From Gamsiella multidivaricata (Eukaryota > Mortierellomycota > Mortierellomycetes > Mortierellales > Mortierellaceae), in contig NW_026251834.1 of NCBI RefSeq assembly GCF_025024155.1, positions 1 through 64,000 on the forward strand: a stretch of 64,000 nucleotides of DNA, written 5' to 3'. Positions 24,278 to 39,266 of this stretch are shown here, piece after piece. Made by a program: the position numbers and the translations under genes. The first letter of the stretch is position 1; each line of letters opens with the position of its first letter. The notes under the pieces were generated by a model. The model did not search any database, was not told where the DNA came from, and was given only the letters and a program-made list of their open reading frames with translations.

Positions 24278-25828
24278 TCAATAAATATGACAAATGCCCA
24301 GGATGCTTAGCACCCGTAGACGTTTCAATCTCTGCATCTGTAGCATGGTACCTCCGTCCACCTTAATCGGGAACGAAAGCACGCTGAAGTTTAGGCGCGT
24401 CGGCCTCAACTGCAACTCCTCCAACACGCTCAGCTGCGTTAGCTTCTCAAGGATTCTCTCCTGCAAGAACATGCGTCTGTCAGCGACAACAACGTTAGAC
24501 GGATCCTCGAGCTCCACTTCCTGGTAGAATGACGCAGCTTGGATCTCATTGCAGCTAATACTGATCCTCAGCCTTGTTATCGTTGCGCGACATCCCCACT
24601 GGATACGAAGGAACCGGTCCACATTCACGGATGCGTTCTCAAGCTCAAACACGCGTAAATTTGGACAGATCTCAAGGACGGCCAAGGTCAGGTCCAGTTC
24701 AACTTCGAGGAAGCGGGTGTGGTACGAGAATACCTCGAGTCGAGCGCGTAGTCCGAAGCTTCTCAGGTAGAATACGGCAGCGAAGTCTCTCTGAGCTCGC
24801 TTCAAAGAAACCTCTAGGAGTTGATCGCTTGCTGTGAGGACCTGCTCCAGTACTATACTATCTTGATCTTTCCCTGGGGCTGGGAGTCCGTCGAATTCCA
24901 GAAGCTGAAGGGTTGAGCTGCAGTCCGAGTCCCTGATGGCAGTGGCGATGGTCAAGAGCAGGCTCTGGGCGGTATAAGGCGGGAGTGTAAGTCGTCTAAG
25001 TCTGGGGCACCGCTTGATCATGTAGACCACCAACCACTTGTCGACATAGGAACCCTCGAACTTTAAATGGATGATCTGAGTGGGTTGATGAATGATATCC
25101 ACATGCTGCCGACAAGTCCTACGTGATAGCCAGACCAAGGTATCGATATCGGAGCAATGATCCAATAGAACCTGCGCAGCATCCCTCTGTACCGCCCTGG
25201 AGACGCAAACCTCCTTCAGTTGACCAAGGCCGCCCAGCGCCTCGGCGATCTTTTCGATACCTTCTTGAACACTCGACAGGTCGATGCGCACACAGGTCAA
25301 TGATGGGTTCCTTGTTATCAAGTCCACCCATATCTCGACAGTGCGCGGTGCGGTCACGGCACCAAAGTATTCGCACCATGTCTCTAGTTCGAATTGGAAC
25401 TGAGGACATGCACTATAGCCATCTGAGCAGAAGTCTTGCGGATTCTCGATCACCAGAGCGTGAGTTAGATTGCTGCATCCGTCGCCTAGGTACTGGAAGG
25501 AGTGCACGTTGGCTGCAGCTATGGCTTTTGTCAGGTATGAGTACTTATATACTCGACTCCCACCATAACCGACTTCAGATTGGTCACAATAAGGAATATC
25601 TTCAAGCTCGAAATGTCTGGCTCCATGGGTTCGAGAGGCGAGGCCGTAACCGAGGTCTTTGGAGAAGTAATCAAAGTCAAAAATGTGAATACTCCGGTAA
25701 AGCGGCTCGATGAACCATTCGAACCAGAGGCGATTGACACGGAGACAGACAGTAAGATCATGAGGAGCGAGGAACTCGGCGATGTGGGACACCAGTTCTG
25801 ACACATCAAAAATACGATGATGTACCAT
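24278..25828 (-). CDS. F-box / leucine-rich repeat protein (516 aa)
   Basis: An intact, intronless 516-residue frame. The N-terminus is an F-box (ELVSHIAEFLAPHDLTVCLR then VNRLWFEWF), the Skp1-binding module of SCF ubiquitin ligases. The rest is a series of irregular leucine-rich repeats with recurring patterns such as CPRLRRLTLP and CPNLRVFELENAS, which would bind the substrate. The layout is the same as in the gene at 27229-28761, though divergent in sequence, so they are paralogues of an expanded family. Such genes multiply in early-diverging fungi. The substrate is unknown. Confidence 0.85.
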   Translation of the reverse strand: MVHHRIFDVSELVSHIAEFLAPHDLTVCLRVNRLWFEWFIEPLYRSIHIFDFDYFSKDLGYGLASRTHGARHFELEDIPYCDQSEVGYGGSRVYKYSYLTKAIAAANVHSFQYLGDGCSNLTHALVIENPQDFCSDGYSACPQFQFELETWCEYFGAVTAPRTVEIWVDLITRNPSLTCVRIDLSSVQEGIEKIAEALGGLGQLKEVCVSRAVQRDAAQVLLDHCSDIDTLVWLSRRTCRQHVDIIHQPTQIIHLKFEGSYVDKWLVVYMIKRCPRLRRLTLPPYTAQSLLLTIATAIRDSDCSSTLQLLEFDGLPAPGKDQDSIVLEQVLTASDQLLEVSLKRAQRDFAAVFYLRSFGLRARLEVFSYHTRFLEVELDLTLAVLEICPNLRVFELENASVNVDRFLRIQWGCRATITRLRISISCNEIQAASFYQEVELEDPSNVVVADRRMFLQERILEKLTQLSVLEELQLRPTRLNFSVLSFPIKVDGGTMLQMQRLKRLRVLSILGICHIY

Positions 25829-26159
25829 CTTGGCGAGAACGTGTGGGCGGACAATTGAAAGTCAGGAAAGAAGAGAAAGGACATGGCGCTGTCCAGGAGG
25901 GTGTTCTATCTATGGGGAACCGTCATCATTAATCATGATAATATTCACAATTAAACCTCCACCCCCTTGCTTGCTTTTTTATTCATATCGATCAGATTGG
26001 CAATGGTCGCATTGACGATGGGGACAAAAAAAATTAGTATGTACATGATAATCGCGCCATTGGGATTACAGCATAACTGTTCGTAACACTGTCGTTGACA
26101 GCCATTGTAGCTGCATTGGACATTGATATTATTTTATTTCACAGATAAAGTCAGTACAC

Positions 26160-27228: not shown

Positions 27229-28761
27229 TTATACATATCGACAGCGAGCTGCAATGCTGTAGCGAATGCCCCATATTCGCAGCATCTTCAATTTCTCAAG
27301 TCTCGTCAACTGCAGCCATGTACTTCCTGCAAGGTGTATTCGAAAGGATCTCAGGATCCACTGCTCCGGAGAAGACCCCACCCAAGTAAGCCTGTCGAGC
27401 ACTAACGCCTCGAGCTGTTGAAGGTTTGCTAGGGAATCGAAAACGGCACTTTGCTTTGCAGTCCTGAGCTCCAAATCAGACTTGTACAGCCGTGCTTGCG
27501 TCTCCGTACAGCTGAGGGTGATCCTCAGTTTCTTGAGCGAGCCGCGACACGCCCACGTCAAGCCTAGGAACTGGCCGACGTCGATAGAGGCTTTCTGCAT
27601 CTCAAAGACGCGCAGATTCGGACAAAGCTCTAGTGCGCTAAAGACGAGGGTAGGTGAGCAGCGCTTGTAAAGGTCAATTGAGGTGAATGAAAGTTCCGTG
27701 AGTCGATCTCTGAGCCCTATGTAGCACAGGAACTTGCTCGCGAAAAAGTCTCCCCGGCTGTCGGCGAAGGAGATTGAAGATAACTGTTCGCTGGCAGCCA
27801 GTAATCTCTCGAACGGTTCCAGTACAAAGGTAGATGTCCCCATATCCCCGCTGAAATCGATTCGCTTGAGCGTTGTGCGACAAGGGGAGGCCTCGATTGC
27901 TGCTGCTACTTCAGAAAACAGCGGGATGGAGAGATATGGCAATGAGAGTCGTTCCAGTGCAGGGCACCGCTTGATCATATAGGCTATTACGGTATGGTGG
28001 GGGTAAGATGGCATGGGAAATCGAAGGTGTTTGATCCCTGTTGGCTGTCCGTCCTCTGCTGTCGTTCGTGCGATTATGCGCGTGTGCGGCTCAATGCAAA
28101 TGGTAAATGTATGGATAGAGGGGCACTGGTCAAGGAAGAGCTGGATAGCATTTTTTGCTTGGGGCCAGCGTAGAAAGGTCTCTCGTAGATGATCGAGGTT
28201 GCCCAAGGCCTCGGCAATCCTGTGAAGACCATCCTTGATCTGGTATAGATCCATACTGACATAGACCAGACGAGGGTTTCTCTGGATGAGAGCCTCCCAG
28301 ATGTCGACGGTCCAAAGAAGGGTCGTCTTGCGGAAGTAGTCTTCCCAGTAACGGATCTCTCTATCAAAGAATGGACATGCCCGACATTCAGTCCTCTTTG
28401 AGAGGAACTCCTCGACGGTCGCATGCGTCAGGTTGGTGCAGGTATCGCCCAGGTACTGGAGGGAATGGACATTGGCGGTGGAGATAGTCCTGATGTGGTG
28501 TGCGTACTTGTAGACCTGGCTTCCGCCGAGTTTCTTTGGGAACCAAAACTGAAGCCATTTTTCGAAACGGGATTTTCGGTTGGTTTGGTTCTCGTGGCTG
28601 TGGAAGTCAAAGTCGAAGACACAGATGTGTCGATAGAGCTGAGGAATGAAGGTACTGAACCAGGTTCGGTCGACACGGACACAGGCTGCGAGGTCAGGAG
28701 GCGTGAGGTCGATTGCGATGAGCTCGGCCAGTTCAGGAATGAGCACAATGCGTTCGCTCAT
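27229..28761 (-). CDS. F-box / leucine-rich repeat protein (510 aa)
   Basis: An intact, intronless 510-residue frame starting at the ATG in 28759-28761. The F-box is ELAELIAIDLTPPDLAACVR followed by VDRTWFSTF. Leucine-rich units follow to the end (for example CPALERLSLPYLSIPLF and CPNLRVFEMQKASID). It would be a substrate receptor of an SCF ubiquitin ligase. Its first 226 codons and about 380 bases of upstream DNA are duplicated almost identically at 39530-40532, showing recent copying. Which copy is original is discussed in the findings. The 5' flank is GA-rich. Confidence 0.87.
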   Translation of the reverse strand: MSERIVLIPELAELIAIDLTPPDLAACVRVDRTWFSTFIPQLYRHICVFDFDFHSHENQTNRKSRFEKWLQFWFPKKLGGSQVYKYAHHIRTISTANVHSLQYLGDTCTNLTHATVEEFLSKRTECRACPFFDREIRYWEDYFRKTTLLWTVDIWEALIQRNPRLVYVSMDLYQIKDGLHRIAEALGNLDHLRETFLRWPQAKNAIQLFLDQCPSIHTFTICIEPHTRIIARTTAEDGQPTGIKHLRFPMPSYPHHTVIAYMIKRCPALERLSLPYLSIPLFSEVAAAIEASPCRTTLKRIDFSGDMGTSTFVLEPFERLLAASEQLSSISFADSRGDFFASKFLCYIGLRDRLTELSFTSIDLYKRCSPTLVFSALELCPNLRVFEMQKASIDVGQFLGLTWACRGSLKKLRITLSCTETQARLYKSDLELRTAKQSAVFDSLANLQQLEALVLDRLTWVGSSPEQWILRSFRIHLAGSTWLQLTRLEKLKMLRIWGIRYSIAARCRYV

Positions 28762-29142
28762 TATTCAATCAGGGATGGCAGGTGAATGGGAAAAGAGGAC
28801 AGGAGAGAGAGTGCGGGGTAGAGTAAGAAGCGAAGGAGGGTGTGCGGGGCAGACTACAGGGACAGAAGAGGCAGTGAGACAGACTTGGTTTACAGCACAG
28901 CCGCAGGATCGATCAACACGCTACATATACACTGTAGATCCTTTTATGGCCCACAGAGCAGAGGGTCAGTTAACGGCGAGAGGGGGAAAAGAGAAGAGAG
29001 AAGGATCGACGCGAGAAAGAGGGGTCGACGCAAGAGAAGGAGGGGGGAATAGAAAGAGCCGCGAGGAGAGGAGAGGAAAGGAGGAGAGAGAGAGAGGAGG
29101 AGGGGGGAGGATGTCTCACCCTCGCACGTGGCGCTTGGTCTC
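28084..29142. repeat. Segmental duplication, copy 1 (about 1.06 kb)
   Basis: This segment covers the first 226 codons of the F-box gene and its upstream region. It matches 39530-40532 with only a handful of single-base changes plus one extra GA-rich block of about 56 bases at roughly 29050-29110. Homology ends after GCGCTTGGTCTC, where the two loci diverge completely. Confidence 0.95.
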
Positions 29143-29382: not shown

Positions 29383-31557
29383 ATGATTCCTGCCTTCGTA
29401 ATACAAGCTGTAAACCTCATGCAACAGCTTGCTCCACTCTTTGACCAACCCGTGCCTATGCCTGGTCAACCTGGGGCTCTGCCTAACCTAGCTACCCAGG
29501 GGTTTAACGCTTCTGTACCTGGATCCAGTCAGACTTCATCTCATGCTCCAGTTATGCCCATCGCTGTTCAAGTTGCACCTGTAATCATTCATGGCACCTC
29601 ACCCCTTGGGCCAGTGATGCCTTTGACCATCCAGACCGCTCCTACCACCATCCAAACTGTGCCTGCCACCACCAAAAACACACCTCCTCTTGCTGAAGGA
29701 GCCAGTGAAGCCGACTCAGATATAGAGGAGGGGCATTTGGCGACAATTGTTCGCTCCCGTCCACTCCTCAATGCTGGGGATCAGTTTAATGATCTGGAGA
29801 ACGAACCTGGTAAGCAATGTGCCCAATGCTTTTTTTTTTATTTTTTTTTATTACCCACGTAACCATTCAAAAGTCGCTAGCATGGATACTGCCGACAGTG
29901 TCAGCAGCAACACCAATTGTAATAATTAACGCAGGCGCCAATCTTCCCCCCCGTCCTCTTATGCTTTTACTCATCCACATCATCATCCTCACCATGGCTA
30001 TATCAACCTCCCTGCGCCTATGCGTCTGGACGGATCCCTTGAGCCTATCCACATATTTTCACTTTTTTTACGGATGATATCTTGGCTGAACTAGCATGGA
30101 ACACAAACGCATATGCTACAAAGAAGGAAGCCTGAATGAAAGTCGGAGCTCATGCATGGACGTGCACTTCCTCAAAGGAACTTAATCTTTTCTTGGGTAT
30201 CCTCATCTACATGGGCATTTTTCATCAGCCTCGTGTTGCGGATTATTGGTCTCTGTCATCACAATATCCATCACATCCATTCAAACGCTTCATGTCACTC
30301 ATTCGATTTCAACAACTCAAGCGATTCTTTCATGTTTCCAACCCGTATGCTCATCCTGAACCTTGGTATTTCAAGCTGGAGCCACTTTCTACCAAGCTTC
30401 AGGAATTGTTCCACAAATTCTACACCCCTTCGACAAATGTCTCTGTTGATGAGATGATGGTTCGGTTCTCAGGTCGAAGTGTGCATACTATTCGGATAAA
30501 GAACAAGCCAACGCCTCAAGAATACAAGATCTTTTCACTTTGCGACTCTGGATACACCTACTCATTTCTGTACACCTCGAGGGTTCATTCTTTCAACGAT
30601 ATCAAGGAAGTCCCTGGCTTGAGCAAAACCTTGTCTGTGGTCTGCCAACTTGTCAAAACACTTCCTTATCGAAATTTGTCCTACAACGTCTTCATGGACA
30701 ACTATTTCTCCAACATTCCTCTTTTCATTGCTCTTCGGGACCTCAATATTGGAGCATGCGGCACAGTATGGGGTTCGTCGTCGCGATTCCCAAAAGAACT
30801 CAGGATTAACAAGGCGATAAGCTTGACTGGAATACTTTGTTTGGTGTTGTGATTGATGATAAGGTCATTGCCATACTTTGGATGGATAATGGGCCGGTTA
30901 CAATGCTGTCTACACTCCATGAGATCGTGGGTGATACCTCATTCGTCATGCGCAATAGACGCCGCCCTCGAGGAACGAGTACAAATGGTAGAACTGCCCG
31001 TGCAGTTTTTCAAGGACATCCCCGAGCTGACCTCAAGATCCCCAAGGTTATCGATGATTATAACCATTGCATGAGTGGCGTGGATGTCAGTGATCAATAT
31101 CATATGTACTACCACACACAACTGTCAGTTGTCCGAAATTGAATGCCTCTTTTCTTCTGACATTTACAAACGGAACAATGGGTCTCTTTCTCATCGCGAT
31201 TTTCGAGCTCAGCTGGCATGGTCTCTGATGATGAATGGCATTCGAGAGGAGCAAGCTTTACCAAGGAGCTGCCATGGCCAACCACTTGTGTCGCACAAGG
31301 TCAATAACCCCTACATTTCTAAATTGAAACCCACGCTCTCTGAAGAACGTTTCGTTATTGGGAACCACTTTCCTGAATATTCAGATAGCCGTTCCGAGTG
31401 TGTACTCTGCCGCTACAAGTCAAGCATACATGGGCCTGGCCTCACAAGCTTTCATCACAAGATTACACATTGGAGCTGCACCCATTGTGCCCTTCCTTTG
31501 TGTATCGTCAAAGAGCGAAATTGTTTTCAAGAGTATCACAGATCTCAGGATATTTAA
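29383..31557 (+). mobile_element. piggyBac-like transposase remnant
   Basis: A plus-strand frame from 29383 gives a Pro/Thr-rich N-terminus, then a GTAAGC donor near 29810. The core begins before 30136 in the same frame as MKVGAHAW, with an in-frame TGA just before it. The core shows the piggyBac order: KELNLFLGILIYMGI, FKRFMSLIRFQQLKRFFH, VDEMMVRFSGRSVHTIRIKN, VFMDNYFSNIPLF and, after a frameshift near 30814, MSGVDVSDQYH. Past 31138 the expected Trp positions read TGA, and a further shift leads into SHRDFRAQLAWSLMMNG and a Cys-rich end (CVLCRYK, WSCTHC) like the piggyBac cysteine-rich domain. It encoded a cut-and-paste transposase targeting TTAA, now inactive. Terminal repeats were not identified. 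Confidence 0.85.
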
Positions 31558-31955: not shown

Positions 31956-34900
31956 CTATTGCGCGGCATGATGCTCAGCCCAATAATCGCTGATACATCG
32001 TCGTTCAATAAAATGACCTTCAGGTTCCCATGTATTTTCATCAGAGGAATAGCCCTTCCATTTGACCAGATATTCATTTGTGTTGGGTGTAATTGTACTA
32101 GCCCTGTGGTCAACGATTTTTTCCACTTCATAGGTATCAGTATCTTCAAAGTCGTCCAGCACAAGCTTGAGCTGAGATGGGGCATAGTGACGTCCTAACA
32201 AAGCTCCTATGCCATCTTTAAGAATATATGAGCCATGTGAAGTGCGTCATGCCACTGTATATGGTCCTTCATACCGTGGAGTGAGCTTGCCTCCTTTAAT
32301 CGGATCAAGAGCCATTACTTTTGCTCCATCTGGGAATTCTGGGAATTCGATCATTTTTTGCTGTTTCGCCTTAAATTTCTTTCTAATGGCGGGAAACATG
32401 ATCTCGGTCATGTATTTTAGACGTTCAAGCAGTTCTTCTTCGTTCATGATTCTGCCTTCTTTGATGGTGTAGTTATTGAAGTTATTTGCTTTGCGGGCGA
32501 AGAATAACGAGAATGGTGATGAATTGTGCAGACTAACCGTTCGCGTATTTGCAGACAATTGTACAAAGGGAATATGTCGATCCCAATGACGATGATCTCC
32601 TTTAACTCCTTTGCGAATCATATTGCAACTCCATTTCCCCTTGGATGGTATGGTGTTACCAGACGATGATCTATATACACCTGTGTGGTCATGATGCGGG
32701 TGAGTTCGTTGACAAACTTTTTTCCGTTATTCGATTGTAACACGCGAGGGAAGCCAATATCAGTAAAGCGTTTGAACAAGGTCTTTGCGACAGTGTACGA
32801 GGATTTATCAGGCAAGGCATCCAACAGAACAAACCGAGTGTACGCATCGACTATAATCAACAAATAGACATTCTTGTCTTCGGACTCTTCAAAAGGGCCT
32901 ACAATTCCAATCGCAATGAGTTCACCAGGTAAGTGTGCATGGATTGCCTTCATAGGATGATACCCTTTACGAGCAATATTCATCCTCTGGCATTCTCGGC
33001 AGCGCTTTACGAAATTTAAACAATCATTGGCCAGATGGGGCCAAGTTTCCCCTTGCTGATGGATTGAATTCACCATAGCATTTGTACCAAGGCGACCCAT
33101 GGCATGCGCTTTATACATGGTTTCGTCCCTTTCTTTTTCGGGTACTACCGCTCTTTCTGCTTCCTCATTTTAAAGGATGTGTACGTACGCAAGAGCTCTT
33201 TTCTGCACTTCTGCATGGAGCGATTACTGTTTCCTCACCGGGAATAGACGCGAAAAAACGTCAGGAAGAATATTAAGGATTCCCGGTCGATAGTGGACAG
33301 TAAATAAATAACTCAAAATGATATCTTGCCATGCTTTCATCATGGAATTAAGATTCTGTTGAGAATGCAGGAACATTAAGGCATGGTGGTCCGTGTACAA
33401 ATCGAAATGTCTTCCCCACAAATAGTAATGGAATTTGTTCAGAGCAAACACAATTGCATGTAATTTCTTCTTTGTGGCACTGTATTTACGTTCGCTTTCT
33501 TGCAAAGAACGAGCCATGAGGGAGACATAATTGATGTCTTTTGGATGCTCTTTTCCGTGTGGCAATTGGTACAGTACAGCGCCTATACCAACGTCCGAAT
33601 CATCTGTTGCAATATAGAATGGTTTGCTAAAGTCAGGGAATGACAAAATTGGTGCATTCGTCAACATATTTTTTAGAGTATTGAATGATTGCATTTGTGC
33701 CTGATTCAGAGCGAATGGTTCGGTTCGACTACGAAGCGCGTCTAGCGGTGCTGCAATGTCACTGAACAAAGGGATATATTCTCGGAAGAAATTGAACGTG
33801 CCAAGATATGACTGGATCTGTTTCGCTGTTCTTGGCGGCTCCCATTCATTAATGTTTGCGAATTTGGTTGGATCAACACTTTTGCCGCGCAGTCCAATGA
33901 TGAAGCCCAACAGCTAGATTTGTGTGCTGAAGAAATTGCATTTCTCGCGGTTGATTATCAATTTGGCTGCATTGAGCCGTTCAATTACACCTTATATATG
34001 CTCAGCATATTCTTCTCAATTCTTTGAGAATATCGCAATGTCATCAATGAAATTACAGACGAATGGAAGATCGCTGAGGATCCTTGACATTCCCCTCTGA
34101 AAAAGACTGGACAATGGCTTCAGTCCAAAAGGTGCATTTTTTGAACATGTACTGCTTGCCATTGTGCATAAATGCAGTCAATGCTTGATCCTCTTTATGA
34201 ATTGGAAGACGATGGTATGCCTGAGAGAGATCAATTGTAGTAAAGATTGTGTGTCCACCAAGACGAGTAAAAATATCGTTGTTTAACGGTAAGGGATAAT
34301 TGTTATCCGGCAGATGCTTATTCAACGGTCTGGGGTCAAGGCAGACTCGTCACAGCGTCTTCTTACCATGCTTATCCTTTTTAGCAGCAAGCGTTAGCGT
34401 ATTATTGTGCACATTGCTAACTGGCGCAAGCGTGATAACATCATCGCGTAGCCATTTTTGAATAGTGTCTTCGAAGATGCTCATTTGCTTTTCAGCAAAC
34501 GGTCTGGGCCTTCTGAATAGTACAGTGCCCTCAGGAACAGGCAAATGTGCCTTCATTTCTGGTACAGGACAGAAGCTCGTTTTTGGTATTTCAGCATTTT
34601 ACTTCAGATACTCAGCAATTCGTTCGAGAAACTTATGTTTTGCAGCTTGGAATGCCTTTGACTTTTCGTCTGAAGGCTGTTCACCAGGAATTAATGAAGG
34701 TTTGGTATCTTCTTCAGATTCAGAGAGTTGCATCGCATCATCGCCAGGATTGACGAAAGCTGAAATGCTAAAACCGAATTGATGAAAGAGATCCATTCCT
34801 ATGATGAACGGATATGATTGATTGGTGACCTCCATAGGTGCTGACACAATTCGAGTGCCGTACTGCAATTCAATGTTTTCAGTCTGACCAATTCGAGGGA

Positions 34901-35493
34901 TAGTTTGGCTTTCATCGGCAAGCGCGATGATACCCTCAGCAGGATTAACTTTTATTCCGTATTTGAGAGCAATGTCATGCCGAATACAAGTGTCTGTTGC
35001 ACTTATATCAAGCAAGGCTTCATGTTTTTCGTCCTCAAAAGTGATTCTTCTGTCCGATTAGTCTTTGTTAACGCTCAATTTGGTGAATTTGAAAGTACCA
35101 TCATCGATTTTATTCAACGACGAGATTCGAATTTGATGGTTTAGACATTCATAGTCCTCGTTGCTGCTTTTACCAGTCTGTCGTTTGTCGTTCTTGTTTG
35201 TACATCTCTTCGAGATCAATTATTTCAGGGATATCTTTGACATATGAATTGCAAGTGCCATAAGACGATATTGCAGAGTGTGATAGTACGTCAGGATTGA
35301 CTACAGGCTGCGCTAAAGCAGGATGCATTGCGATGCGCGGTTGTTTGTCAAAGATAACTTCGTGCCGCGCCGAAGCGTTAGTCTGATCGCATAGTATATG
35401 GTTGTTCGCTAAAGCGGGTAATCTTATTTTCTGCAATGGGCTCCTCATTTGAAGCCTCAAACTTTGTTCGTTTATTGCATATTTATTAACCAA
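31956..35493 (-). mobile_element. Ty3/Gypsy chromovirus retrotransposon, decayed
   Basis: On the minus strand the pol order is preserved. An aspartic protease-like region (LDISATDTCIRHDIALKYG, about 35015) comes first. Reverse transcriptase follows, with TTIDLSQAYHRLPI and the catalytic box FIDDIAIFSK. RNase H (FYIATDDSDVGIGAVLYQ; LYTDHHAL) spans about 33910-33224. The integrase zinc region and core (CRECQR, 33118-32618), a GPY-type region (PRYEGPYTV) and a chromodomain ([32 protein letters not shown]) complete the order to 31956. Several in-frame stops and at least one frameshift in an A run near 34130 inactivate it. In the integrase the expected catalytic Asp positions read Gly (AIGIVGPF) and Asn (SNNGKKFV). 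The 5' end stops near 35493, against the dispersed repeat. gag and the LTRs were not found. Confidence 0.93.
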
Positions 35494-35568
35494 CTTTAAA
35501 TTAAGTTTCAGGGATAATAGATTTATATGGTAATAAAGTACACACTGGACTCGGCTGAATATGCAGCA
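35481..35568. repeat. Dispersed 88-bp repeat, copy 2
   Basis: This matches 19136-19221 (see that entry). It lies exactly between the truncated retrotransposon and the Fanzor-type frame, so it may be the end of one of these elements or of the element that carried copy 1. Confidence 0.75.
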
Positions 35569-35626
35569 CTACATTGTTGCTATATTTAGAGCTAAATTTC
35601 TGGTAATGTCTGTCCTTTTAATGTAA

Positions 35627-37421
35627 ATCGAGGCTCCTAAGAAAAAGGGTCTTTTGCCTTCAGACGCAAGGAGCAACGTTGAGCCTAATATTTCCGCAGT
35701 CGAGAACCTTATTCTCCTCAGCACGGTCTGTATGAGTCGCCGACCGTTAGTGCCGATGTCATCCTTCGATGACAAGTTCATTTCTATTACAGAGCTGGAT
35801 CTCATTAAGATCTTCTGGCATGACAACGCCTTGCGATATTAACTTCGAATGTATACCCACCAGGACTTTCCAAGTTTCGAGTACATCGAAGCTATCTCGC
35901 AGGCGGACGTTGGGCTATGGCTCTCTAGAAAGGAACCGGAACATCTCCTCACCAAGCTGATCACCCACATTAGAGGATATACGCCGGGAGAACGGAAAAG
36001 GTTCAAAGATTACCACAGGTCGGTCGACCTTGATGATGACGCTTGATAAGATGAGAGAGCATATTGAAGCCATTCGAAACGATAACTTCGGGCCCAACAC
36101 TTACAAGGAGAGCGGCTATGCTTTACGTGGATTGATTCGGACAGATGGGTTTCGGCTTCAGTTGCTCGCATTCAAGCTTAACGAACTCAATGCGGTCAAG
36201 TACAGACGACTTCCCGAGGCCAAGCTATCACCTCGCATCAATTCTACTCTCGGCGGCACGGATTATTCCTTGACCGAGATCAGGAATGTGGTGAAGACCA
36301 AACAGGACGTCTCGGATCTTTGGGGATATGATCTGAAGCAGATCGAGATTTTAGGTCTGGATCAAGGACAAGCATTTGTGATCAGAGTAAGCGCCCTTCT
36401 GCCTAGTTGCGAGCAACTCACCGTAGATCAAGAACAAGAAACCAATGGCGCTATCAAAGAGCCATCCCCGTCGAATGTCGGAGGAGCAGGAGAGGCTGTT
36501 ATGACCAAGAAACCATCTACCAAGTTTTACAACCTGGTTGTCAAGCAGAAGGCGGTGTATCAGCCCACACTGAAGCACAGGCGTTGGTTGAAGCTAAGGA
36601 AAGGAATGATGGTCTATGCTTCAAGATCTATTAGCAGCATCGAGAGCAATCTACCGCACCTCCACGGCTCTGCAGCAAGCATCAAAGACTATACTGACAA
36701 GCTGCGGGACGCGGAGACTCACCTCGATTCCTTCTATGGCAGTGTGATTCTGAAGAAGCACAAGTGGAACGCTAGAAAGGCGCGAGACGAGGAGTACAAG
36801 CAGATTGCCAGCCGTCTTCTCAAACTGGTTGAAGAATCACTAGGTGCCAAGAGAGAAGACAGCAACAAGGTCATCATCGGCGTGGGTCTTGGATAGTTTT
36901 CTACGAAGACTAAACTGTCCTCCTTGCATGAGTCTTTCCAATCGTACTTTGTCCAAAAAGTAAGTGGTCGATGGTGGTGTCTCTTCGCTAGCCTATGATT
37001 GTTATCTATGGTACAATAGAATCGGCACAATGTGATGACTAATATCGTATTTCTACTTAATCTTTCTGGCTCTCTCGAGGTCAGATCTCTTGGCTATATC
37101 GTTGTGGATGTGAACGAGTATTACACTTCCAAAAAGTGCACAATATGCGAGGAGTTTGTGGGCCAAGTTAACATCCGACGACTTTATTGTTCAAACTGCA
37201 AGACATACATGCACCGCGACATCGTGGCCGGCCACAACATCAGCAATGCAGTCTGTGACCATCTGATTAGCCAGCAGCGGTCCCTGCAACTCAAGCCCAA
37301 AGATATCGATGGGAACTACCCATGGATGCAAGTAGCAAGTTCTTGCTCCACTAGCAGCAGCGACGGAGAGCGTTCAGGGGCACAGGTCGTCTCAATTAAT
37401 TTCGTCTTAGTTTTGATCTAG
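35627..37421 (+). pseudogene. Fanzor-type RNA-guided nuclease (eukaryotic TnpB), disrupted
   Basis: Plus-strand segments form one protein of the Fanzor/TnpB family, nucleases that use an omega RNA to cut matching DNA. An N-terminal stretch with a PKKK nuclear-signal-like motif runs from about 35627; a TAA lies at 35840-35842, so translation may begin at 35849. The frame changes near 36040 (one indel) into 36030-36896, which holds RuvC-I (ILGLDQGQAFVI). A TAG at 36894-36896 interrupts GVGLG and FSTKTKLSSLHESF. A 120-base intron (GTAAGT donor, 36960-37079) then joins in phase 0 to a last exon, 37080-37421. That exon encodes VNEYYTSKKCTICEEF, the second Cys pair LYCSNC, and MHRDIVAGHNISNAV (RuvC-III). 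The Glu in NEYYTS is where Fanzors carry their rearranged catalytic Glu. All catalytic residues survive, but the nonsense codon and frameshift suggest recent loss of function. Confidence 0.85.
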
Positions 37422-37424
37422 GAG

Positions 37425-37466
37425 GGGCGCGCGAATCGCCACTTTGGTGACGTAGTTTTCGCGCCC
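37425..37466. ncRNA. GC-rich hairpin after the Fanzor stop (candidate omega RNA end)
   Basis: GGGCGCG at 37425-37431 pairs perfectly with CGCGCCC at 37460-37466, with a smaller CCA/TGG hairpin possible inside. The first arm starts four bases after the Fanzor stop. In Fanzor and TnpB loci the guide RNA usually overlaps the 3' end of the gene and the element end, so the position fits. It could equally be part of the promoter of the following secreted-protein gene. Confidence 0.3.
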
Positions 37467-37480
37467 ATTGTCCTGGAATC

Positions 37481-37490
37481 TATAAAAAGG
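37481..37490 (+). promoter_or_regulatory. TATA box of the secreted-protein gene
   Basis: TATAAAAAGG lies 102 bases before the start codon at 37592, followed by a C/T and A-rich leader. It is a strong match to a canonical TATA element. Confidence 0.75.
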
Positions 37491-37591
37491 TTATCCAGAA
37501 CACATTCCTTTCACTCCAAAAAACTACCTCTCTCCTCTCCCCCCCGACAACCACTCCATTCCTCATACCCCCCAAAGAAAACAAGCACACC

Positions 37592-38095
37592 ATGCGTCTC
37601 GCCCTCTTCTCCGTCCTTTCCGTTCTGGCTCTCGGTCTGATCCGTAGCGAAGCTACCAACGTTGTCCGTATCGACCCTAAGTCTGGCTTAGTCTGCCTTA
37701 TCCTTCCTCCTCCCGGTAAACTCATTGGCGACACAGAGCAAAACGGCCATGTCCAGTGCACTGATGGCAAGCCCAAGTTGTTGCCCTCCAAGTTCTTTGC
37801 CACCAAGAACTTCCAGGTCACCAAGGACTATGTCCAGGCTTGGGGTTTCATGAACGACGCCAGCGTGGGTCTCCTCAAGAAGGACGGTGGCGGACAGTAC
37901 GATGTCCACAAGGACTCTGGCGACAACATCGCCCCCGGCTACCCTGTCTTTGTCGAACTCCTCGAGCCCGATAGCGGACGCTGGTGCATCCGCTTCTGCC
38001 ACGAAAAGGGACCTCACTGCAACATGGGACGTAGTAGCGATGGATGCGAAGGCGCTTTGGGCATCACCAGCTGGCCATCCCCTTCCCACCATTAA
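37592..38095 (+). CDS. Small secreted Cys-containing protein, conserved fungal type (167 aa)
   Basis: An intronless 167-residue frame. A signal peptide (MRLALFSVLSVLALGLIRSEA) precedes a mature domain with CLILPPPGKLIGDTE, a central GGGQYD, FVELLEPDSGRWCIRFC and a late Cys pair (HCNMG, DGCEG). This order, PPPG...DTE then GGGQYD then FVELxEPD..WCIRxC, is one I associate with a family of secreted fungal proteins of unknown function. Six cysteines suggest disulfide bonding outside the cell. The strong TATA box and intact frame suggest an expressed gene, the only intact non-F-box gene inside the transposon island. Confidence 0.88.
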   Translation: MRLALFSVLSVLALGLIRSEATNVVRIDPKSGLVCLILPPPGKLIGDTEQNGHVQCTDGKPKLLPSKFFATKNFQVTKDYVQAWGFMNDASVGLLKKDGGGQYDVHKDSGDNIAPGYPVFVELLEPDSGRWCIRFCHEKGPHCNMGRSSDGCEGALGITSWPSPSHH

Positions 38096-38268
38096 AAGAA
38101 GCTCCACATTTCCTCTTGCAATATAAAAATAAAAACCTCACACAATCCCTGTAGACCTACTAGGCATAGCCGCTGGATTTTTTTTGTGAAATTTATATAT
38201 TATTTTTTGACTACATATTGAATACTCCTCAAAAGTCCTGGAATGCTGGGAGTTTTCATGATTGCCGA

Positions 38269-38522
38269 ATGAAAAACGCCAGTGGATAATGGTTTTTCAT
38301 TGAAGCCCACGAACTTGGCTAAGCAAAGTGGTGTTTAATAACAAGAATCACCGGCGTTGGTCCGCATGCTGTGAACGAAAAGTGAGATTTTGAATGAATT
38401 AAATGAAAAAAAGCCTGTAAATAATAGTTTTTCAGAAATACGCCTGAACCTGGCTTAAGTAAACCGGCGCTTGTGAACAGGAATCACCGGCGGTCCTTAC
38501 GAAGTGTTTCCCATAAAGCGAG
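38269..38522. repeat. Imperfect tandem duplication, two units of about 120 bp
   Basis: Unit 1 (38269-38386) and unit 2 (38402-38522) share the same order of blocks: AATGAAAAA, TAATGGTTTTTCA or TAATAGTTTTTCA, GAAC(T/C)TGGCT, then GAATCACCGGCG and AAGCGAG-like ends. They are clearly related but diverged. No coding sequence is present. Confidence 0.7.
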
Positions 38523-38719
38523 ATGTCGAGGTGATGGGCAACTTTTGAAGGCTGTAGCTCAATGAGAATGTGGATGAATAGCCAGTTTGCGAAACCATTT
38601 CTAGATGTCGATGTAGGATAAGGTTGGCGCTAAAAATGCGCTTATTTCTATTTTCGATCGCACAAGTTTGAGACCATGCACAAAAATTTCCCCATTGGTC
38701 GAAACTTTTAACGAGCCTA

Positions 38720-39083
38720 CAGTCCTTTTTGTGAAATAGCCGAACTTTCATAGTAAAAGTTGGGCTATTTCGACTGAAATGAAATATATACACGAGGCTA
38801 TTCATTTTTTTGCAAGGATTTAAGAGGTCACATGATGAGTTTATTTCTAGTAAGATTTACGAATCAAGTACCGTACTGTTTTTCGGTAGCTCGCGTTCTC
38901 ATCTCCAAGCAAAGTGAGAGTGAGAATGACACGCGTTTTGATGTAGTCATGAGCGTAAAGATTGCAGGGAAATAACGTATTTCAGCCATCACAAAAAATG
39001 AATAGCCTCGTGTATGTATTTCAATTCAGTCGAAATAGCCCAACTTTTACTATGAAAGTTCGGCTATTTCACAAAAAGGACTG
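38720..39083. mobile_element. Fold-back MITE with Tc1/mariner-type ends
   Basis: Arms of about 92 bases (38720-38811 and 38993-39083) are inverted copies with few mismatches, starting CAGTCCTTTTTGTGAAATAG. They are flanked by TA on both sides (38718-38719 and 39084-39085), the target duplication of Tc1/mariner elements. Each arm also contains its own palindrome of about 39 bases (GAAATAGCC ... GGCTATTTC), so it can fold by itself. The 180-base centre has no coding capacity, so this is a non-autonomous element. Confidence 0.88.
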
Positions 39084-39266
39084 TAGATGATTCCACTGCA
39101 AGAAATGTAACCAGCCTGAGGACGCCATCACGTGCAGGCAGCAGGCAAGCACATTACCATAAATGGAAATTCTGCACCATCTTTCTCAGGCTGGGATAGA
39201 ACTCGAGTTATTAGCAAAGTCGAAAATAGGCTGTGAAGTGGTTCTTTTGCATGCATGCAAATTGTC

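Follow-up and report, generated by a model that had tools for sequence, protein, structure and literature searches.

What is the stretch of broken reading frame at 35627-37421 a remnant of? The window, by which we mean the whole 64,000-nucleotide stretch of Gamsiella multidivaricata DNA analysed here, carries at this place a segment that a sequence-only reading took for Fanzor, the eukaryotic relative of the RNA-guided nuclease TnpB. The same reading held it to be a young pseudogene, spoiled by only a few point lesions. Judged by its sequence, the segment is the RuvC-TNB part of a Fanzor1, and it is the tail of something larger. In its intact relatives the Fanzor part appears to follow a nuclease of the XPG/FEN/EXO1 type and to travel with it in a Mutator-like transposon.

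Two exons can be recognized, both on the + strand. The first, at 35627-36959, is the remnant of a large internal Fanzor1 exon, recognizable in its broken frame from relatives in the genome; it spans part of REC, the WED domain with RTDG, and RuvC-I. The catalytic Asp codon of RuvC-I (in GLDQGQ) lies at 36360-36362, placed by the motif and by alignment to relatives. A 120-nt phase-0 intron with GT..AG borders follows at 36960-37079, as had been claimed. The last exon (37080-37421) contains the catalytic Glu codon of VNEYYTS at 37116-37118, the start of the first CxxC of the TNB zinc ribbon at 37137, the catalytic Asp codon of HRD at 37218-37220 and the Fanzor stop codon, TAG, at 37419-37421. 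All of the motifs that the sequence-only reading listed are present in the order it gave; the copy keeps its catalytic D, E and D and all four cysteines.

The assignment to Fanzor stands up to profile and motif comparison. The last exon matches PF07282 (Cas12f1-like TNB) with 46.1 bits against a cut-off of 26.3 (E 5.6e-12); the remaining three scanned pieces of the copy matched zero Pfam families. By sequence, the best PDB relative of this exon is the mimivirus TnpB-like protein L79, titled Fanzor2 (E 0.009). The Fanzor signature D-X(125,275)-[TS][TS]-X-X-C4 ribbon-X(5,50)-RD, as given in the accessible passages of PMC3627910, occurs with D at 36360, TSKKC at 37125-37139 and RD at 37215-37220; the D-to-TSKKC spacing is ~215 codons, a span that includes the stop at 36894. 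In VNEYYTSKKC the Glu stands six residues ahead of the first CxxC, which is where the rule for Fanzor in the available text of PMC10711439 places the rearranged Glu, and where the earlier reading had put it. That text also names a TDG motif in the WED domain as a mark of Fanzor1, and the window ORF has it as RTDGFRLQ. Across nine genomic copies the T and G of TDG are invariant and N replaces D in two. Alignment of relatives keeps the RuvC-I Asp in 23 of 23 rows and the rearranged Glu as E in 18 of 18, the other five rows being gapped at that position. The TNB match of the window copy, the predicted fold of a full-length relative described below and the motif rules together support a Fanzor1-like identity.

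Is this otherwise an intact gene? The TAG at 36894 and the TAA at 35840 are real, both in frame, and the suspected frameshift can be placed between 35961 and 36046; two stops and a frame change disable the copy. At the position of TAG 36894, the genomic copies compared lack a stop. These lesions are not the whole of the damage, however. The upstream exons, encoding the XPG domain and ~195 residues of the Fanzor N-terminus, were not found at the window copy, nor was the left transposon end or a target duplication around it. With ten fusion proteins as queries and E values up to 0.01 allowed, the window yielded no remnant of XPG. Position 35627 is no gene start; an internal exon has its 5' border there and lacks its upstream partners here. 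The place expected for those exons is occupied by pieces of a broken Gypsy-type retroelement on the - strand: Pfam identifies rve and H2C2 at 32618-33166 and RT RNase H at 33224-33910, and further pieces can be made out by eye as far as 35057.

Several other features lie nearby. A piggyBac-type transposase ORF at 30136-30849 (+; PF13843, 3.3e-43) seemingly continues out of frame downstream. Two ORFs on the - strand, 24278-25861 and 27229-28764 (527 and 511 aa), resemble each other and look LRR/F-box-like by eye, with no Pfam family above cut-off; a stretch similar to them seems to recur near 39.6-40.3 kb. A small ORF with a signal-peptide-like beginning and no Pfam match (37592-38095, +) starts ~120 bp past the Fanzor right end. 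The inverted repeats at 38717-38810 and 38993-39086, 94 nt long, 98% complementary and 182 nt apart, look like a small hairpin-type mobile element.

Relatives elsewhere in the genome had been predicted, and they are abundant. The first large exon of the window copy has at least 154 matches in its own genome and the last exon at least 150; several of these copies have long open frames. Ten contigs carry near-identical copies, 96-99% identical over 2.3-4.4 kb. The window copy is not a young member of such a near-identical family, given 65% protein identity to its nearest listed relative, with dN 0.25 and dS 1.0. In seven of the eight Fanzor comparisons that could be computed, dN/dS falls between 0.10 and 0.27. 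A database protein of G. multidivaricata is 100% identical across 68% of a 553-aa Fanzor query from the family we call A, and the Fanzor half alone retrieves 190 database proteins. Every organism-named protein among the 120 matches listed belongs to what we take to be the Mortierella-type group; Gamsiella itself is placed in the Mortierellaceae (taxonomy look-up). An association with telomeres was considered and set aside: seven of the intact copies retrieved lie near contig ends, yet those ends have no TTAGGG runs, and a four-unit TTAGGG pattern has zero matches in the genome. The contig ends near intact copies look like assembly breaks within near-identical repeats. Five loci, L070-L074 on C63, C136, C115, C171 and C126, make up two divergent Fanzor subgroups. 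XPG partners are listed for those on C136, C115, C171 and C126; no CGTAGT motif was found in the 3' regions of the five, and their ends show no significant fold.

What, then, belongs upstream? Ahead of intact Fanzor exons, on the same strand, lies a sequence resembling XPG/FEN nucleases, which Pfam XPG_I and XPG_I_2 match at scores below cut-off. A TNB match lies no more than 6 kb downstream on the same strand at 67 of 101 XPG loci in the genome, where ~1.2 would be expected; none of the 101 has one within 6 kb on the opposite strand, and the upstream control gives 5. The 34 XPG loci without a downstream TNB include an XPG-like group of 27-29% identity. This separate group (for example C24:67111-67749, C113:52652-53281 and C19:44189-44824, with no TNB match within 6 kb downstream) is possibly another mobile or host family.

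A two-gene element was assumed at first and was dropped once the exon between the XPG and Fanzor sequences proved to encode the Fanzor N-terminus. Three observations speak for a single reading frame through XPG and Fanzor. The exon preceding the window-type Fanzor exon encodes the N-terminal Fanzor fold (residues 419 to ~614 of the fusion protein P0001). Locus L015:2736-3788 is one stop-free, intron-free ORF that aligns in one piece to residues 209-472 of P0001 (29% identity), beginning within the XPG fold and ending within that of Fanzor. Finally, a 1,259-aa spliced query retrieves 38 database proteins, 17 of which cover at least 85% of it; these come from seven genera (Dissophora, Mortierella, Linnemannia, Benniella, Entomortierella, Haplosporangium and Actinomortierella), and a Podila protein covers 71%.

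Both halves can be recognized in searches. Of nine fusion proteins scanned, two (P0006 and P0008) score above cut-off for both XPG_I and TNB within a single chain, and the other seven do so for TNB alone. In a PDB sequence search the family profile matches FEN-1 (1.5e-12), RAD2 (3.2e-12) and also EXO1; Fanzor1 chains are absent from those results and appear solely in fold searches. The predicted model of P0001 has an EXO1/FEN1 fold over residues 1-246 and the fold of SpuFz1 over 419-1113. Seven XPG-type acidic positions, assigned by FEN1 numbering, are D or E in 8/8, 14/14, 17/17, 18/18, 18/18, 19/19 and 20/20 aligned residues, the rest of the 23 rows being gaps. At the fourth position FEN1 has E and these sequences have D. 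Distances in the XPG part and the RuvC part correlate across 13 proteins (r 0.60, Mantel P ~0.001). Sequence, predicted fold and the comparison of relatives show a reading frame that passes through both nuclease folds and retains acidic active-site residues in both.

A family-A copy on contig 93 (C93) is a complete element of ~7.9 kb. Its right end lies just past Fanzor, XPG-Fanzor occupies one strand, and a divergent gene stands at the other end. The divergent gene matches PF10551 (MULE) at 25.2 bits, below the cut-off of 27.6 (E 2.3e-5), and a SWIM finger at 24.2 bits, above the cut-off of 19.6. The C-terminal part of this gene occurs ten times in the genome at 96-100%, and several other XPG-Fanzor pairs have a weaker match to it upstream in divergent orientation, those on C47, C124, C122 and C101 among them. 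Target duplications of ~9 bp accompany the insertions. They agree at 9/9 positions on C131, at 9/9 on C93 with the match extending to 12, and at 8/9 on C126 and C124; a family-C and a family-B copy show 9/9 by pattern search. On C47 the script found none, and 6 bp agree by eye. No long TIR (terminal inverted repeat) was found: the C93 element shows no inverted repeat that would link its left end with its right. MULEs without TIRs exist. A short family-A element at C126:732401-734548 keeps its two ends, part of the transposase and the tail of Fanzor but lacks the middle; by its structure it is an internally deleted derivative.

Insertion sites share a further feature. Directly read left ends have ACGTCA exactly 3 nt ahead of the duplication position in 13 of 14 cases (11/12 in family A, 2/2 in family D). 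The motif was present in all of the first seven left flanks, five from family A and two from family D. It was then set down as a prediction, and six of seven further family-A left ends read afterwards have it; the one family-A end that lacks it sits on a diverged copy. For C73 and C133, placed by their left ends alone, the motif spacing assumes a 9-bp duplication. Five copies of other subfamilies were approached by searching the genome for the motif plus duplication pattern. The family-C copy gave a single match, exact and at the expected place; the family-B copy has an exact duplication, in place, with CCGTCA; for one copy of F and two of G no match turned up at the expected position. Because such a search looks only for sites with the motif or a near-motif, these five tests may lend confirmation but give no frequency. 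The + strand of the 64,000-base window contains ACGTCA 9 times. An ACGTCA-N3 motif is apparent at insertion sites. It stands in the left flank, and the target-adjacent motif (TAM) of a Fanzor would have to be on that side.

In most multi-copy subfamilies right ends are sharp: identity stops abruptly and flanks differ (10 different flanks at 10 loci), though the boundary is blurred in subfamily E. Just inside the right end is TGACGT, common to subfamilies B to I and part of A, mostly as GGTGACGTA. In the window, the terminal 72 nt lie at 37402-37473 (+), up to a right end held in common with locus L058; they contain GGTGACGTA and form a putative guide-RNA scaffold hairpin. Were an RNA of this kind made, its guide would come from the flank at 37474-37488 (+), by comparison with the 14-15 nt guides of SpuFz1.

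How well does this end fold? Compared with dinucleotide shuffles, the terminal 72 nt of 15 representatives have a mean z of -2.89; control stretches average -0.27 (144 nt upstream), -0.27 (72 nt upstream) and +0.11 (72 nt downstream). Individual controls in F, F2, G and G' come to -2 to -3 as well. Eleven of the 15 fall below -2.5, the window copy among them at -2.54, and in four the fold is weak or absent (H -0.25, L058 -1.07, L -0.95, M +1.25). No consensus structure emerged when 27 right ends were aligned globally, so subfamilies were folded one at a time and their hairpin arms swapped. The arms vary in sequence from one subfamily to the next; native arm pairs average -15.9 kcal/mol and swapped pairs -10.5 across ten subfamilies (permutation P 5e-5). 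The own arm ranks first in four of the ten; A (10th) and E (6th) do not favour theirs. Rfam has no match in window positions 35000-38500 up to E 1. The omegaRNA of SpuFz1 is described, in the available part of PMC10432273, as a ~75-nt right-end scaffold running 14-15 nt into the flank, and the putative scaffold hairpin here would have the same placement at the right end of its element. For one other Fanzor1, the accessible text of PMC10711439 has the target duplication predicted as part of the scaffold; were the same true here, the guide would lie further from ACGTCA. The 72-nt hairpin is a likely candidate for a guide-RNA scaffold, whose guide would be drawn from flanking DNA.

How would such an element work? 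A transposon-retention role has been proposed for TnpB. We propose that a complete member consists of a MULE-type transposase, a divergent XPG/FEN/EXO1-Fanzor1 gene and a scaffold-like right terminus, that it acts by cutting the empty site, trimming and recopying, and that the window copy, dead and truncated on its 5' side, is left over from one subfamily of these Mutator-like transposons of Mortierella-type fungi; we give this explanation as a whole a probability of about 70%. The transposase would insert the element next to ACGTCA-N3. Once the element is excised, Fanzor, carrying right-end RNA, would recognize the restored empty site by its match to the flank and cut it. The tethered 5'-nuclease would trim or resect the 5' ends, and repair would then copy the element back from the sister or a homologous locus in place of simple end joining. 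The N-terminus of FEN-type enzymes lies at the active site, so an N-terminal placement suits the XPG/FEN part. Cleavage and resection by the fusion are predicted from sequence and model, and the net effect would be a transposon-retention device with a built-in resection enzyme.

Parts of this proposal can be read differently. The window copy might be what it was first called, the recent casualty of an otherwise intact Fanzor gene: it retains its catalytic residues and right-end hairpin, and the part that remains has merely three lesions. The dS of ~1.0 and 65% protein identity to the nearest relative listed, together with the failure to find upstream exons and a target duplication, make so young an age very improbable. 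A separate doubt concerns the fusion itself. XPG nuclease and Fanzor might be made as two proteins from one locus, by their own mRNAs, an internal start or cleavage, in which case the annotated fusions would be artefacts of gene callers, which may fuse neighbours, and the window would simply hold a Fanzor remnant. Many copies do have a Met shortly ahead of the Fanzor part (for example ...M-x-K-x-x-L...HP), which would permit a separate product, and the model of P0001 has pLDDT below 50 between the folds (289-301, 313-340 and 372-400). That Met is missing, however, in P0007, P0008, P0009, P0011 and others; a linker motif, RYSFKxR...MKQYxWKPWK, is conserved between the two folds; the L015 ORF crosses both with neither stop nor intron; and the gene models of seven other genera concur. 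We consider two separate proteins quite unlikely.

If the fusion is real, its XPG/FEN domain might still serve the transposase, processing flaps or gaps of Mutator-type excision and insertion, with the fusion no more than a shared delivery vehicle. The element does encode a MULE-like transposase, and XPG-only sequences occur in the genome, but across subfamilies the XPG domain is in frame with Fanzor and not with the transposase; a helper of this kind is unlikely. The part played by ACGTCA is harder to call. It might reflect target preference of the transposase only, unrelated to recognition by Fanzor, and transposases often show such preferences; ACGTCA is a bZIP-type site. The reported TAMs (CATA, TTAAN, CCG and TAG) are 3-5 nt long and adjoin the target, whereas here three free nucleotides separate the motif from the duplication and the guide position. 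Yet ACGTCA is one-sided, on the TAM side, and the TGACGT that recurs in right-end hairpins is its reverse complement. We regard a transposase-only motif as an even bet. The most far-reaching form of our proposal has Fanzor1, guided by its own transposon's flank, cut the empty site next to ACGTCA, a motif that the transposase also uses; the FEN/EXO1 domain would resect, and homologous copying would restore the element. This would be a self-contained homing cycle on a Mutator transposon, diversified into many subfamilies in one genome; Mortierella-type fungi would have evolved a programmable nuclease and a resection enzyme within a single polypeptide. We offer it tentatively, as possible and rather doubtful.

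To return to the fused, retention-type element that we favour: that a FEN/EXO1-type partner is conserved in frame suggests that it matters what happens to the ends after cutting, and so that Fanzor promotes copying by homologous repair. From the insertion-site motif and the sharp right ends follow predictions that can be tested, on the guide, the target motif and the cargo. In genome engineering, exonucleases are fused to Cas enzymes as a means of steering repair; a natural nuclease-exonuclease fusion under purifying selection would, if true, give engineers a ready template.

How much of this is new? In the literature searched, main texts with few subscription papers among them, we found no report of Fanzor joined to an XPG/FEN nuclease. 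The same literature yielded no report of Fanzor in Mortierella and none that brings together Mortierella, transposable elements and Mutator, and where 'flap endonuclease' stands beside Fanzor in the passages available, it merely labels viral genes. Fanzor1 in MULE-like fungal elements and Fanzor beside GIY-YIG are already known; the XPG/FEN-Fanzor fusion may be new here, although an earlier mention is conceivable.

The closest known elements are ROr-4, PBl-3 and MCi-4, described in the accessible part of PMC3627910 as MuDr-type Fanzor1 elements of Rhizopus, Phycomyces and Mucor with 9-bp target duplications. They share with ours the placement of Fanzor1 in MULE-like elements of early-diverging fungi and the length of the duplication; as far as that text describes them, they have TIRs and no transposase, whereas the elements here have a transposase, no long TIR that we found, and a Fanzor fused to XPG. 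In the giant-virus mariner PGv-1, reported in the same text with a transposase, a GIY-YIG endonuclease and a Fanzor1, Fanzor likewise travels with a second endonuclease, but there, by that account, the genes are separate and the nuclease is of an unrelated family. According to the available part of PMC10432273, SpuFz1 is encoded by one ORF, and its locus measures ~2.1 kb. Compared with SpuFz1, PpFz1 and GtFz1, the proteins here have an XPG/FEN nuclease and a ~170-residue linker preceding Fanzor1 in frame; compared with FEN1, EXO1 and XPG (RAD2) nucleases, the XPG-type nuclease here is fused to an RNA-guided one.
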